Part shown: positions 22,365 through 28,377 of the stretch, in pieces | Layout of the letters: each line of letters opens with the position of its first letter | Numbering within the stretch: position 1 is the stretch's first letter | Source of the DNA: Actinomycetota bacterium | GTDB taxonomy: Bacteria > Actinomycetota > Coriobacteriia > Anaerosomatales > UBA912 | Direction: 5' to 3' | DNA length: 36,753 bases | NCBI GenBank assembly: GCA_018334075.1 | Contig: JAGXSC010000024.1 | Location: forward strand, 1 to 36,753 | Notes under the pieces: generated by a model | Database searches by the model: none | Told to the model about the DNA's origin: nothing | What the model saw: the letters and a program-made list of their open reading frames with translations, nothing else | Position numbers and translations under genes: made by a program

Positions 22365-24620
22365 TCACAGAGTGTCTACCGGATCGACATCTATCGCCAG
22401 CTTTACGCCCTTGAAGCGAAACGTCCCTAAAGCCTCGCGCAATAGCTCCGGCACTCCTTCCCTTGCCGAGGACTTCAGAAGAATCCGCCAGCGCCAGGCG
22501 CTCTTGACCCGCCTGATGGGAGATGGTCCCGGGCCAAGAACCTGCACATCCGCGCCGGCGCGCGCGGTAAGGACGCTTGCCGCCTGAATGGCCGCCTGCT
22601 GCACCGATTGCTCATCCGGACCCGAGAAGATGATATGCGCCAGTCGAGCGAAGGGCGGGTAGCCAAGCTCGGCTCTGGCCTGCTTTTCCTCGGAAAGGAA
22701 ATCTTCCCGCCTCCCGCTAGCGACTGCCCTGATCGCATGATGGCCAGGCCAGTAGCTCTGGATGACTACTCGGCCCGCCTTGTCGCCTCGGCCAGCCCGG
22801 CCCGATACCTGCGCGAGCATCTGGTAGGTTCGCTCGGGAGCAAGGAAATCCGGAAAGCGCAGGGTCGTATCGGCGTTTAGCACCCCTACCAACGTGACCT
22901 CGGGGTAGTCTAGTCCCTTGGCGACCATCTGCGTCCCCAACAAAATACCGGTCTTTAGCGACTCGAACCTGGCCAGACAGCGCTCGTGACCGCCCTTCCC
23001 CCGGGTAGTATCCGCATCCATGCGAACTACCGGTAGCTGCGGAAAGCGCTCGGCAAGCTCCGCTTCCACCCGCTGTGTTCCCGCGCCGAATTTCCGCAGA
23101 AACACACTGCCGCACTGCGGGCAAGCTGCGGGAACCGCCCTGTGTGCGCCGCAATAGTGGCAGGCCAGCACAGGATTCTGGTCATGATACGTCATCGATA
23201 TCGAACACGATCCGCACATCGGCACATGGCCGCAGTTCCGACAGAGTAAGAATGAGGCGAAACCGCGCCGGTTCAGGAGCAGCACCGCCTTGTCCTTCTC
23301 CTCGGCGATCTTTTGAAGCGCCGAGATAAGCTCACGGGAGAACATCGAGCGATGCCCCTCTTCGAACTCCCTGGTCATGTCAACGACGCTCACACTCGGC
23401 TGAGGTCTGTCCCCAACGCGCCTAGGCAGTGCAACCAGGGTGTAGCGACCGCTATCGACCCTGCTCAGAGTCTCCATTGATGGCGTCGCGCTTCCAAGCA
23501 CCAACACGGCCCCTCTTGCCAGCGCCATGCGCTCAGCGACTTCGCGAGCGTGATACCGTGGCGAGGAGCCCTGTTTGTAGGAGTTGTCGTGCTCTTCGTC
23601 AATAATGATAAGAGCGAGATCACGAACGGGCGCAAACAAGGCTGACCGCGCGCCAACCGCAATTTTCGCTTCGCCAGAGCGAAGTCGATCCCACTCATCG
23701 AACCTCTCGCCTGCCGACAGGCGACTGTGCAAGACTGCAACATCATCGCCAAATCGCGAACGAAAACGACCTACGGTCTGCGGGGTGAGCGATATCTCGG
23801 GAACCAGCGCTATCGAACCGTGGCCTGCTTGAAGCGCGGCCTCTATCGCTTGCAGGTACACCTCAGTCTTGCCCGATCCAGTCACCCCGTCGAGAACGAG
23901 AGTGCCGCGTCGGACGCGATATGCCGCCAAGATTGCGTCGAGCGCTTCTTGTTGCCCTTCTGTAAGCTCCGAGGGCCGATGCGCGGGATAGTCACGCGAC
24001 TCCGGCCTTCGGTAACTTCGGCGAGTCTCGACAGCGAGAACACCGGCGCGCGTCAGGGTCGCGATCGCCGAAGACGCGCCTGGCCCTATCATCGCCCGCA
24101 GCTCGACAGCGGAAAGCGGTCCCGCGCGCAAGGCGTCCAGCAGTGCCCACTGATTTGTGGCAGCCCTGCTCGGCGTATAGGCCGAATCAACGATCGAAAC
24201 CCAGCGCTCCTCCTTCGCCCGAGTTTGCGTAGCACCACCGAAGCGCGATGGGCCCTGCGCCGAGGCGCTCGTACCGGAAGCCTTAGAGCGACCAGGCGGG
24301 AGAAAGAGCTTTACCGCCTCGGAAAGCGAGCAGACGTACTCGTTGGCGATCCACTCGGCCAGATCCGCTGCCGCCTCGTCAAAGAGTGGCTCGCCGAGAA
24401 CCTCGCGAATCGGACTCGCGTCACAGTGCTGGGTGGAGGCGGAAAGGCCGCAAACCCAACCTGCGAGCTTGCGACCCGAAAATTCGACCAGAACGGGCGA
24501 TCCAATCTCGATCTTGCCCACCAAAGCCGAAGGTATCCGGTAGTCGAACGCACCAGATACCGCCCGGGCGGGCACATCGACGATCACACGAGCGAAACTC
24601 TTCTGAATACAATCATCCAT
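22365..24620 (-). CDS. priA: Primosomal helicase PriA
   Basis: 3'-5' helicase that restarts stalled replication forks. From the ATG at 24620 it has 751 residues: the N-terminal 3'BD (about 1-100), a winged-helix part, a helicase core with Walker [15 protein letters not shown] and DEEH in [12 protein letters not shown], the zinc-binding insert with paired cysteines (CRNCGH, CGSC, CHYCG, CPQCGS), and the C-terminal domain. Both helicase motifs and all eight cysteines appear intact. The ATG overlaps the metK stop region by eight bases. A reading with 28 more N-terminal residues lies inside metK and is rejected. Confidence 0.95.
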
Positions 24621-25872
24621 CAAGCCCGGCTGCCTCGGCGAGCGCCTGTGCCTTGTCCGTGCGCTCCCAAGTGAAATCCCTGTCTGCTCTGCCGAAGTGA
24701 CCATAAGCGGCGGTCTTGCGATAGATTGGACGGCGCAGATCGAGATCGCGAATTATCGCTCCCGGCCGAAGATCGAATACCGAAGCGATCGCTGCCTCTA
24801 TGTTCTTTTCGGACACCTTGGCTGTGCCGAAGGTCTCCACAAAAACCGAAAGAGGATGCGAAACGCCTATCGCGTAAGCCAGCTGTATCTCACAACGGTC
24901 AGCGAGTTCGGCCGCGACCACATTTTTCGCGACCCATCTGGCCGCATAGGCAGCGGAGCGATCGACCTTCGTGCAGTCCTTGCCGGAGAACGCGCCTCCT
25001 CCATGCCTTCCCATGCCGCCATAGGTGTCTACGATAATCTTGCGACCCGTAAGGCCGGTATCTCCCATCGGGCCGCCGATAACAAAGCGTCCGGTGGGAT
25101 TGACGTATATCTCGGAATTTTCATGGCTTATGTTCTCAAGCTCGAAAACGGGCCTGATGACGTGCTCGATCAGATCCGGCCTAAGCAGGTCCTCGATGTC
25201 GACTCCATCAGCGTGCTGTGTGGAGATCAGGACCTTGTCGACCGCGACCGGAACATCATCGACGTAGCGGACGGTGACCTGAGTCTTGCCATCAGGGCGC
25301 AGGTACGGCAACACTCCGCCCTTACGCACGGCCGTAAGCCTTTCCGCGAGGCGGTGCGCAAGGTAGATCGGCATCGGCATGAACTGCGAGGTCTCGCGGC
25401 AGGCGTACCCGAACATCATGCCCTGATCGCCCGCGCCGATGGTGTCGAGCGGATCCGAGTGCATCCCGTGTTGCACCTCGAACGACTCGTCGACTCCCAT
25501 GGCGATATCCGCACTCTGCTCATGGATCGAGGTCACGACTCCGCATGTCTCGTGGTCGAAGCCGTATTTGGCTCGGGTATATCCAATATCGGCGATGACC
25601 TCACGCACGATTGAAGGAACATCCACGTAAGCGTGGGTGCGTATCTCGCCGGACACCACCACAAGTCCGGTGGTGATGAGTGTCTCGCAAGCCACCCTGA
25701 CATACTCGGGACTTGCAGGCTGACCCGCCGGCGAGACGAAGCCCGCGTCGGCCAGCTCGGTTTCGCGCTGAATGATAGCGTCGAGAATGGCGTCGGACAC
25801 CTGGTCGCAAATCTTGTCCGGATGCCCTTCGGTGACCGACTCGGAAGTGAACAGGTAATCGCGCTTGGCCAT
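24613..25872 (-). CDS. metK: S-adenosylmethionine synthetase
   Basis: Makes SAM from methionine and ATP. The 419-residue protein has [20 protein letters not shown] (20 residues near the start), the [12 protein letters not shown] motif, and the [19 protein letters not shown] loop typical of the family. The ATG at 25872 has AAGGAGG upstream; a longer in-frame reading extends into the leader and is rejected. It is the first gene of an operon whose 5' leader carries a SAM-I riboswitch and terminator, so it is probably turned off when SAM is plentiful. The downstream genes priA, def, fmt, rsmB and glpX may share the transcript. Confidence 0.97.
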
Positions 25873-25927
25873 GTGCCCTCCTTGTGTTGACAGCAATTGC
25901 TCGAATCCGCTCGAAACGATTTGACGC

Positions 25928-25963
25928 AAAAAACAAACACCCCTGCCTGGGCTGGACAAGGGT
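25928..25963 (-). terminator. Riboswitch-controlled intrinsic terminator before metK
   Basis: On the minus strand ACCCTTG (25957-25963) pairs with CAGGGGT (25939-25945; one G-U), with two more pairs inside, followed by GTTTG and six Ts. The 5' arm segment CCCTTGTC (25955-25962) can instead pair over eight positions (two G-U) with GATGAGGG (25998-26005), which contains the 3' half of riboswitch helix P1. This is the usual SAM-off switch: SAM holds P1, frees the terminator arm and stops transcription. Confidence 0.88.
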
Positions 25964-25999
25964 CTCGCTACACCGGTAGGTTCTACCGAAAGCTCTTCC

Positions 26000-26127
26000 C
26001 TCATCTTCCAGGCGTAAGCCTGCCGAGAGTTGGCACCGCTTCGTCATTTTCGACGCCGGTTGCCGGGGTGTCATCGGGCTCGGTCCCTCGACCCTTTTGC
26101 GGCCTTATTCGACCGCCTCTAGATGAG
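26000..26127 (-). promoter_or_regulatory. SAM-I (S-box) riboswitch aptamer of the metK operon
   Basis: Minus-strand elements in order: P1 CTCATC (26122-26127) with GATGAG (26000-26005); TAGAG; an additional hairpin GCGGTC/GGCCGC (26111-26116 and 26099-26104) with loop GAATAA; P2 GGGT/ACCC around the kink-turn AGGGA...GATGA; the conserved CGGCAACC; P3 CGTC/GACG; GGTGCCAA; and P4 CAGGC/GCCTG followed by GAAGATGAG. The P2 loop CCGAG (26079-26083) is complementary over five bases to CTCGG between P3 and P4 (26023-26027), the pseudoknot position that in the B. subtilis yitJ type is CUGG/CCAG. This compensatory change supports a real fold. Ligand identity is by class, not measured. Confidence 0.92.
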
Positions 26128-26131
26128 TCGC

Positions 26132-26159
26132 TATATATTATCGCTTAAGTCAGTGACAA
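26132..26159 (-). promoter_or_regulatory. Candidate metK operon promoter
   Basis: Minus-strand TTGTCA (26154-26159) and TATATA (26132-26137) are 16 bases apart, and the riboswitch begins five bases after the -10. TAATAT, which overlaps it, is an alternative -10. Position just before the aptamer supports the call. Confidence 0.5.
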
Positions 26160-26259
26160 GTCACCCGGTAATTGCGTTCGATTCCCACAAATATACGCTG
26201 ATGCGTTGTACGATGTAGTACTGGTCAGGAAATATCTTTATTGCAAGGAGTAAACCGTA

Positions 26260-27729
26260 GTGTCTGAAACCGTAAGAGTAAGATTCGCGCCCAGCCCGAC
26301 AGGGCATCTCCACATCGGCGGAGCCAGAACCGCCATCTACAACTGGGCGTTCGCGCGCCATCACGGCGGAAGCTTCATCTTGAGAATCGACGATACCGAC
26401 AAGGAGCGCTCCACCGACGAGAACACACAGGCGATCCTCTCGGCGATGCGCTGGCTGGGTCTCGATTGGGACGAAGGCCCTGATGCCGGAGGAGAGTTCG
26501 GCCCCTACTCGCAGGCGTTACGCAAGAGCATCTACGACCAGGCGCTAAACGAGCTCAAGCTTGCAGGAAACACCTACCCGTGCTTCTGTGACTCTGCGCT
26601 ACTCGAGGCCAAGCGTGAGGCGGCCAGGGCCGCGAAAAAGTACTCAGGCTACGATCGCACCTGCCGAGACATACCCGCGCATGAGTCCGAGAGACGCATC
26701 GCGGCGGAAGAGCCGCACGTCTGGCGCATCAAAACACCGCTGGATCGTGGCGATATCGTCATCGATGACGTGATTCGCGGTCAGGTGACTTTCCCTCTCT
26801 CGGCGATGGATGATTTCGTCCTTGTTCGCACCGATACCTCGCCGACATACATGTTTGCAACCGTCGTAGATGACTGGCACATGGGTATAACCCACATCAT
26901 CCGAGGAGACGATCACCTCTCCAACACTCCTCGGCAAGTAATAGTCTTCGAGGCACTCGGCGCCAAGGCGCCTGTATTCGCCCACATGGGCCTGATCTTT
27001 GGCCCCGATGGCAAACGGCTATCGAAGCGCCACGGTGCCACCAGCGTCGAATCCTATCGGGAGATGGGCTACCTGCCTGAAGCCTTGCTCAACTATCTGG
27101 CGCTGCTTGGCTGGTCGCTTGATGAAGACAACATCTTCGACCGAGACACACTAGTGAGGCGCTTCGAGCTTTCCCGGGTCTCGAAGAACCCGGCAGTATG
27201 GGATATCGGCAAGCTTGAGTGGATGAACGGGGTGTACTTGCGTGAGATGACCGCCGAGGAGTTCATTTCGAAGGTCCTCCCACTCCTTGACGAAGCCGGT
27301 TTGATCGCCGAGGACCAGGTGAGTCGTTCTTCGGATTGGTTGCTAGAGTTGGCCCCGCTGGTATCCGAGCGCATCAAAAGGCTCGACGAGGTAGTCGAGA
27401 TGGTCGCGTTTCTCTTCACCGACGATCTGGTAATCGATGAGCGATCTTTCGATGCGGTGTTGGCCAAAGAGGGCGCATCCGATGCCCTAGAAGCGGTGGC
27501 ATCCGTTCTAAATGAGGTCGAGATGACGCCGGAAGCTGTCGAGGAAGCGATGCGAGAGGTACCGGGTAAGCTTGAACTCAAGCCCAAGCTTGTGTTTCAA
27601 GCCACCAGAGTCGCTGTGACTGGGTCTACGGTAAGCCCACCGTTGTTCGAGTCGATCGTGCTCCTTGGACGAGAAAGAGCTCTGAAGCGTGTTTGGGCAG
27701 CGGTTGACAGTATCAAGAAGCGCCGGTAG
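26260..27729 (+). CDS. gltX: Glutamyl-tRNA synthetase
   Basis: Class I synthetase that charges tRNA-Glu, and in organisms without GlnRS also charges tRNA-Gln with Glu for later amidation. The 489-residue protein has PSPTGHLHIGGART (residues 11-24), a zinc-site candidate C108-F-C110 with C135, WRIKTP, DHLSNTPRQ, and the KMSKS motif as KRLSKRHG near 252. The start is GTG at 26260, nine bases after AAGGAG. Two genes for its possible substrates, tRNA-Gln and tRNA-Glu, follow at once. Whether it discriminates between them cannot be told from these motifs. Confidence 0.97.
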   Translation: MSETVRVRFAPSPTGHLHIGGARTAIYNWAFARHHGGSFILRIDDTDKERSTDENTQAILSAMRWLGLDWDEGPDAGGEFGPYSQALRKSIYDQALNELKLAGNTYPCFCDSALLEAKREAARAAKKYSGYDRTCRDIPAHESERRIAAEEPHVWRIKTPLDRGDIVIDDVIRGQVTFPLSAMDDFVLVRTDTSPTYMFATVVDDWHMGITHIIRGDDHLSNTPRQVIVFEALGAKAPVFAHMGLIFGPDGKRLSKRHGATSVESYREMGYLPEALLNYLALLGWSLDEDNIFDRDTLVRRFELSRVSKNPAVWDIGKLEWMNGVYLREMTAEEFISKVLPLLDEAGLIAEDQVSRSSDWLLELAPLVSERIKRLDEVVEMVAFLFTDDLVIDERSFDAVLAKEGASDALEAVASVLNEVEMTPEAVEEAMREVPGKLELKPKLVFQATRVAVTGSTVSPPLFESIVLLGRERALKRVWAAVDSIKKRR

Positions 27730-27764
27730 CATACCAATTCGCGTTTACTAGTGCGCAACAGTAC

Positions 27765-27840
27765 TGGGGTATGGTGTAACTGGCAACACGTCGGATTCTG
27801 GTTCCGAAGAGTCTAGGTTCGAGCCCTAGTACCCCAGCCA
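27765..27840 (+). tRNA. tRNA-Gln (anticodon CTG)
   Basis: 76 bases including an encoded CCA. Acceptor TGGGGTA (27765-27771) pairs with TACCCCA (27830-27836), discriminator G, then CCA. The anticodon stem TCGGA/TCCGA holds the loop TTCTGGT, anticodon CTG. The T arm GGTTCGAGCC is standard. Confidence 0.97.
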
Positions 27841-27846
27841 CTGCAT

Positions 27847-27922
27847 GGCCCGTTCGTCTAGAGGCCTAGGACACCGCCCTCTCAAGGCGGAGGCACGGGT
27901 TCGAACCCCGTACGGGCTACCA
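27847..27922 (+). tRNA. tRNA-Glu (anticodon CTC)
   Basis: 76 bases with encoded CCA. Acceptor GGCCCGT (27847-27853) pairs with ACGGGCT (27912-27918; first pair G-U), discriminator A, then CCA. The anticodon stem CCGCC/GGCGG holds the loop CTCTCAA, anticodon CTC. It begins six bases after tRNA-Gln, so both probably come from one transcript. Confidence 0.97.
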
Positions 27923-27940
27923 AGCTTCACCCTGGCTTCA

Positions 27941-27979
27941 TGCGCCCACTTTCGGCGCACACTTGAAGTGTCCCTTTTT
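27941..27979 (+). terminator. Possible terminator after the tRNA genes
   Basis: Hairpin TGCGCC (27941-27946) with GGCGCA (27954-27959), then a small ACACTTGAAGTGT dyad (27959-27971) followed by CCC and five Ts (27975-27979). The second hairpin is weak, so termination may be partial. Confidence 0.4.
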
Positions 27980-28009
27980 CGCGACATTTATCCCACTTGC
28001 ACAAGCTGC

Positions 28010-28015
28010 TAGAAT
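28010..28015 (+). promoter_or_regulatory. rnpB -10 box
   Basis: TAGAAT matches the -10 consensus at five of six positions and lies seven bases before the first paired base of RNase P helix P1. No good -35 is visible at 17 bases (TTTATC there). Confidence 0.5.
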
Positions 28016-28021
28016 AGTCGA

Positions 28022-28377
28022 TGGAGTGGGCCGGGCGGTCGCGCGCGTCGAAGGTGGGCGCGTGAGGAAAGTCCGGACTCCAAAGGGCATGGTGCCTGCT
28101 AACGGCAGGGCAGGGTGACCTGACGGAAAGTGCCACAGAAAAGAAAACTCTCGTGGCGAAATCCGGCACGAGAAAAGCTGAAACGGTGCGGTAAGAGCGC
28201 ACCAGCGTCGCGGTGACGCGGCGGCTTGGCAAACCCCACCAGGAGCAAGGGCATATAGGAGCGGCTAAGACCGGCCCGGTCGACGCTCGGGTAGCCCGCT
28301 AGAGGCCGCCGGTGACGGCGGCCCCAGATAGATGATCGTCCTTAGACAGAATCCGGCTTACAGGCCCACTCCACCGC
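28022..28377 (+). ncRNA. rnpB: RNase P RNA, bacterial type A
   Basis: Catalytic RNA that cuts 5' leaders from pre-tRNAs. The 5' GGAGTGGGCC (28023-28032) pairs with GGCCCACTCC (28363-28372) to form P1. The 5' strand of P4 GAGGAAAGTCCGGACTC (28064-28080) and its 3' partner ACAGAATCCGGCTTACAGG near 28345-28365 are the universally conserved motifs, and the middle GAGCAAGGGCATATAGGAGCG is also typical in part. A run of five Ts (28378-28382) just after P1 probably ends the transcript. Exact ends are plus or minus a few bases. Confidence 0.97.

Follow-up and report, generated by a model that had tools for sequence, protein, structure and literature searches.

The metK leader and its riboswitch

SAM-I riboswitches are textbook regulatory RNAs with a well-known four-helix junction. 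The leader directly upstream of metK in the window (the whole stretch of 36,753 nucleotides that was analyzed) raises the question of whether such a riboswitch can carry a further helix at its junction, and what that helix would do there. The element lies at 26127 to 25928 on the minus strand, as do all of its parts. It matches the Rfam covariance model of SAM-I (RF00162) over its full length, with 42.5 bits and an E-value of 1.7e-8, and the gathering score of the family is 44.4. Under curated Rfam thresholds no family is reported for the element, and the RF00162 match appears under an E-value threshold. RF00162 is the sole family matching the element up to E 10 (cmscan), and the match is the single one in the genome. 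An earlier note, made from the letters alone, had named the element a SAM-I riboswitch, and this identification holds given the match (although it lies under the gathering score), a core and helices that are kept in relatives, and the downstream metK.

The predicted regulated gene, metK (24613 to 25872, minus strand), encodes S-adenosylmethionine synthetase (TIGR01034, 561 bits; Pfam S-AdoMet_synt N, M, and C domains) and is preceded by a Shine-Dalgarno-like AAGGAGGGC (25875 to 25883). A consensus scan places a promoter-like GTGACT-16-GATAAT at 26137 to 26164, from which the RNA would start just ahead of P1. On the other strand, a glutamyl-tRNA-synthetase-like gene diverges from a GTG start at 26260 (region 26260 to 28376) and is followed by two tRNA genes (27765 to 27837 and 27847 to 27919) and a class A RNase P RNA (28023 to 28376), all on the plus strand.

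All four helices of SAM-I are present, and one is added. Pairing is given as the percentage of cells in A2, an alignment made with MAFFT, blind to structure, from 35 distinct sequences of the same order, in which the pairing of P1 to P4 and of the pseudoknot is supported throughout. P1 (CTCATC, 26122 to 26127, with GATGAG, 26000 to 26005) is 99.5% paired. J1/2 (TAGAG, 26117 to 26121) is followed by the extra hairpin, here named Pi, which lies between the J1/2 GAG and P2 and consists of GCGGTC (26116 to 26111), loop GAATAA (26110 to 26105), and GGCCGC (26104 to 26099). Its stem has five Watson–Crick pairs and one U-G pair in a hairpin of 18 nt. The linker AAAA (26095 to 26098), usually a 3-nt AGN in relatives, leads into P2 (26066 to 26094; P2a 100% and P2b 99% paired), in which an asymmetric internal loop between P2a and P2b (GGGT..CGA..GGG / CCC..GATGAC..ACCC) aligns to the RF00162 kink-turn and is probably its equivalent. 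P3 (26032 to 26064; 89.7% paired) holds the core GGCAACC...GGTGCC, assigned from both the Rfam alignment and that of relatives, and P4 (CAGGC..GCCTG, 26009 to 26022) is 98.9% paired. The ligand-pocket core, that is, the J1/2 GAG and the P3 GGCAACC/GGTGCC, consists of invariant columns in the 35 relatives.

The usual short passage from P1 through J1/2 to P2 is absent here, as Pi enlarges the spacing between GAG and P2. That passage belongs to the common anatomy of SAM-I and not to its definition by ligand, and its absence is what sets the element apart as a variant. In the RF00162 alignment, part of J1/2 is deleted and GCCGCA, from the 3' side of Pi, is misused as a mismatched 5' strand of P1; the GCGG stem is not absorbed into P2. 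The window scores below the cut-off because Pi and a short A-rich linker precede P2. The RF00162 cut-off is an operational one, and it is through the insert that score is lost; R1, a covariance model built with Pi, gives the window 119 bits.

The pseudoknot pairs CCGAG in the P2 loop (26079 to 26083) with CTCGG in J3/4 (26023 to 26027). The earlier note had pointed to it as re-paired, which is correct but not unusual: across the 35 relatives the columns read CCGAG/CTCGG, CCGCG/CGCGG, or CCGCA/TGCGG, all five pairs are 100% paired, and three of the five show double-sided changes. The change is real but ordinary.

Downstream of the aptamer, the 5' arm of an antiterminator, GATGAGGG (25998 to 26005), extends the 3' strand of P1 by two bases and forms eight of eight pairs with CCCTTGTC (25955 to 25962), which is part of the 5' arm of a hairpin that serves as intrinsic terminator (25939 to 25963; nine pairs) with a U-rich tract (25928 to 25938). 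Both alternatives are visible, as the note had claimed, but its statement that they share GATGAG does not stand: GATGAG is common to P1 and the antiterminator, and CCCTTGTC is what the antiterminator has in common with the terminator. In folding, a free 3' strand of P1 yields the antiterminator, whereas a P1 strand that is held yields the terminator. A terminator is found in 35 of 35 relatives of the order, and the antiterminator arm lies within its 5' arm in 31 of 35; a simple test did not find this overlap in the other four. Antiterminator pairings of seven of eight bases are common by chance (shuffling expects 20 of 35), and the informative point is solely where they lie, within the terminator arm.

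In the usual logic of SAM-I, SAM holds P1, the terminator forms, and the downstream gene is off. The anatomy of the leader, read with established knowledge of S-box RNAs, suggests a standard expression platform of this kind, an OFF switch acting on transcription. During transcription Pi would form first, giving a junction of five helices instead of four in which Pi follows the J1/2 GAG and precedes the remainder of P2, and would take no part in the switch itself. With SAM, P1 including GATGAG would be held, CCCTTGTC would be free, and the terminator ACCCTTGTC/GGCAGGGGT would form, turning metK off. Without SAM, GATGAGGG would pair with CCCTTGTC, blocking the terminator and allowing metK to be read.

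Comparison of sequences supports P1 to P4, the kink-turn loop, the pseudoknot, the conserved core, Pi, the terminator, and the overlapping antiterminator, and a SAM gene with an expression platform is in place (metK downstream of terminator and antiterminator). We are confident that the window element is a genuine SAM-I (S-box) riboswitch that at high SAM shuts metK off through termination of transcription and carries Pi as an extra constitutive hairpin.

Distribution of Pi

Relatives in the same order have the same organization. A search with RF00162 of 41 genomes from many families of the order found one match each in 37 genomes, with only 13 genomes passing the Rfam cut-off, among them one of the same family (51.1 bits). 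The loci all read CTCATC-NNGAG-GC..hairpin..GC-short linker-GGG, with slight variation in P1. Seven pairs of Pi were scored in A2, where the row of the window is off by one column at the 3' side of Pi (a consequence of its 4-nt linker) and hence counts against Pi. Nevertheless, 93.5% of pair cells are standard, double-sided changes number 44 (11.8 ± 3.0 in shuffles), and the covariation score is 0.524 compared with 0.181 when shuffled and at most 0.118 when the pairing is slid. RNAalifold draws Pi unprompted.

Across the class (most likely Coriobacteriia, that of the host), R1 was searched over 248 genomes and matched in 88. As to the name of the class, PriA of the window, compared over similar lengths, shares 50% identity with a named Coriobacteriia MAG and at most 43% with eight further named genomes. 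Four matches (L093–L096, 22–26 bits) were rejected as riboswitches since they are false positives in coding sequence. The remaining 86 loci score 83–139 bits; 61 of them belong to the order, and four other families of the class account for 25. All 25 loci of the other families were read, and in each an insert occupies the same point and is capable of forming a hairpin, with stems such as GCACCC/GGGTGC, GTGCCC/GGGCAC, and GCATTC/GGATGC, though Pi pairs less well in L089 and L092. In one locus (L090:1001-1187), the insert has grown to 67 nt and is apparently branched. A separate, non-overlapping alignment of 24 sequences from other families of the class (A4) again supports the helix: 87.4% of Pi is paired, double changes number 29 versus 9.8 when shuffled, covariation is 0.592 versus 0.243, and RNAalifold also finds Pi. 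The stem GCGGTC/GGCCGC with loop GAATAA followed by AAAA, as the note had described it, is therefore borne out on the minus strand, both by the minimum free energy (MFE) fold of the window leader, in which Pi is formed, and by covariation in two separate sets, the 35 and again the 24 sequences, in which the insert is paired rather than random.

In sum, Pi is carried by 73 of 73 class loci read. Its loop varies freely in length and sequence and its stem from about 4 to 11 bp; in relatives its two basal pairs are near-constant, and so is the short linker, mostly 3 nt. By our own count, about 26 of the 86 insert-bearing loci reach the Rfam gathering score; standard models often miss the switches of this class because of the extra hairpin at the junction. 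With roughly 70% of Pi-bearing switches under the cut-off, regulation of metK in the class tends to stay unannotated.

Outside the class, Pi is absent from the loci covered. R1 scores at most 66 bits in a search of 396 genomes across the phylum versus 83–139 inside the class, a clean separation. None of 44 loci read from other classes of the phylum has Pi, and in all 44 the spacing from GAG to P2 (GAGGGA) is 5–6 nt. In the class loci that were assigned, GAG and the P2 RAGGG are 22–35 nt apart, and 73 nt in one. A pattern search of the home phylum likewise gave canonical spacings, its longer matches looking by eye like chance matches in coding sequence. In another phylum (that of a Lachnospiraceae genome; 199 genomes, gapped pattern search), no Pi is present among the SAM-I matches listed; spacings are 5–6 nt, with one unrelated, hairpin-free exception among those matches. 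Within the class, a search of 248 genomes with RF00162 turned up no P4-bearing SAM-I that lacks the insert: the matches either carry Pi or are of a P4-less form in families f19, f22, and f24 (20 loci read). Since Pi is found only in loci of the class and canonical spacing prevails elsewhere, Pi looks like an innovation of the class.

The P4-less form (L135–L154) is a SAM-I-like element in which ACCA/UGGU replaces GGCA/UGCC at the base of P3, the pseudoknot is GUUGGC/GCCRAC, and no helix lies between pseudoknot and P1. Rfam assigns it to RF00162 at 44–58 bits, not to RF01725. The 3' strand of P1 runs into the Shine-Dalgarno sequence (GATGAAGGAGG), which suggests translational control. In five loci (L137, L142, L146, L148, and L150), the element precedes an uncharacterized protein of about 130–220 aa rather than metK. 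Two examples of these proteins had no match to a Pfam or NCBIfam family, and the protein is possibly a new SAM-regulated gene family.

Insertion point and role of Pi

In other classes, GAG is followed by a base that forms a P2 pair and changes together with its partner (for example A-U in L115, C-G in L120). In loci of the class, the order is GAG, Pi, linker, and then the remaining strand of P2. As the post-GAG base belongs to P2 elsewhere, the insertion point of Pi falls after the final G of J1/2 and before the P2 base that comes next. This placement depends on which of two similar motifs is J1/2. Most relatives have a second AGAG-like motif beside P2 (AGAGGG), and were that the functional J1/2, the hairpin would have been inserted between P1 and J1/2. 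Such an assignment draws on the likeness of CCGC-AGAGGGTCGAGGGA to the canonical AGAGgGGcgGAGGGA and on the Rfam alignment of the window, which places J1/2 at the second motif. However, it is the GAG beside P1 that is unchanged in 35 of 35 aligned relatives and keeps its canonical 2-nt spacing from P1; the second motif is variable (AGA, AGC, AGT, or AAAA, with other families having AUA or ACA). We therefore take the first GAG as the functional J1/2 and regard the alternative as improbable. In most relatives, GAGG ... AGAGG flank the insert like a direct repeat (26095 to 26121 in the window); that they are a relic of an origin of the hairpin by insertion or duplication is speculative.

Readings in which Pi is a chance feature or the ligand has changed fare poorly. 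Stems of 6 bp within about 20 nt are not rare where DNA is GC-rich, and Pi could in principle be a chance stem-loop or assembly artifact of a single genome; the relatives already refute this, as the same position and compensatory changes recur in many families and genomes, and we give it practically no credence. Natural SAM-I variants that have switched ligand, such as those sensing spermidine, are marked by changes in J1/2 and P3 (PMC10853860), which offers a precedent for a variant sensing another ligand. Here the J1/2 GAG and the P3 GGCAACC/GGTGCC core are unaltered and the downstream gene in the window is metK, making a change of ligand highly unlikely.

With Pi taken as real and the ligand as SAM, Pi may well be a neutral, variable insertion at a permissive site that affects neither the binding of SAM nor switching, in what is still a SAM-I riboswitch. 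Non-conserved stem-loop insertions that leave the core undisturbed are frequent in riboswitches (PMC2258182), the loop and stem length of Pi vary freely (a stem of about 4–11 bp, and the 67-nt insert of L090), and folding is equally good without it: in silico removal under nearest-neighbor folding revealed no benefit of Pi, with other helices equally or slightly better formed. On the other hand, Pi occurs in all 73 class loci inspected, insert-free SAM-I with P4 is missing among the RF00162 matches of the 248 class genomes, and the near-constancy of the two basal pairs and short linker exceeds what neutral drift is expected to leave. Its fixation in the class speaks for some role. A tentative but credible reading is that Pi acts as a functional, class-fixed fifth helix that would tune folding, SAM affinity, or the decision made during transcription, or serve as a handle for a protein; if so, Pi would mark off a structural subclass within SAM-I. 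Because folding shows no benefit, only conservation argues for a role beyond toleration.

Several specific roles were considered. Prevention of misfolding was rejected since the other helices are unharmed by in silico removal, and a conserved loop contact since the loops vary in sequence and length. Compensation for a short P1 is not convincing: P1 is mostly 6 bp in the class and slightly longer outside it, with broad overlap. Pi is predicted to be formed in nascent RNA with a probability of at least 0.8 in 32 of 35 relatives, and it is absent from the alternative terminator and antiterminator pairings. Pi is conserved at its base, its 3-nt linker hardly changes, and its tip varies freely; this pattern suggests a peripheral element whose effect is to shape the junction or to shield J1/2, and not an arm used for docking or sensing.

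Relation to known riboswitches

The Pi-bearing form is a structural variant of a known riboswitch, class-wide in occurrence and ordinary in regulatory mechanism. A helix added on the strand that links P1 and P2, and retained in many sampled families of the class, implies that the ligand-binding junction allows rebuilding while its pocket stays the same, and Pi-bearing switches are natural variants for probing the role of J1/2 in folding. A search of the open literature on SAM/S-box riboswitches and on added or lost helices found no description of a J1/2 hairpin.

With RF00162, the element shares P1 to P4, the kink-turn loop of P2, the pseudoknot between L2 and J3/4, the GAG and GGCAACC/GGTGCC core, the metK target, and a terminating platform. 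It differs by a covarying hairpin and linker after the J1/2 GAG and by variable bases just 5' of GAG, and both the window and most relatives score under the Rfam cut-off. SAM-I/IV (RF01725; its variants are described in PMC2864571) and SAM-IV (RF00634) belong to the same SAM clan and also have altered peripheral helices (PMC2864571). However, the element matches RF00162 only, P4 is present, the added helix is elsewhere, and the P2 internal loop, the loss of which is the feature of RF01725, is kept. The spermidine-sensing variants are likewise natural derivatives of SAM-I and transcriptional OFF switches, but in them the bases of J1/2 and P3 that contact the ligand are altered (PMC10853860), whereas here the core is kept and a helix is added; in place of altered contact bases and polyamine genes, we find an unchanged core and metK. 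A parallel in kind is the optional P3a of the TPP riboswitch, also a stem-loop added at one site of a standard aptamer, and stem-loop insertions at unusual sites of riboswitches are known to score poorly (PMC2258182). In contrast to P3a, the hairpin described here is fixed in a class and located at the SAM-I junction.
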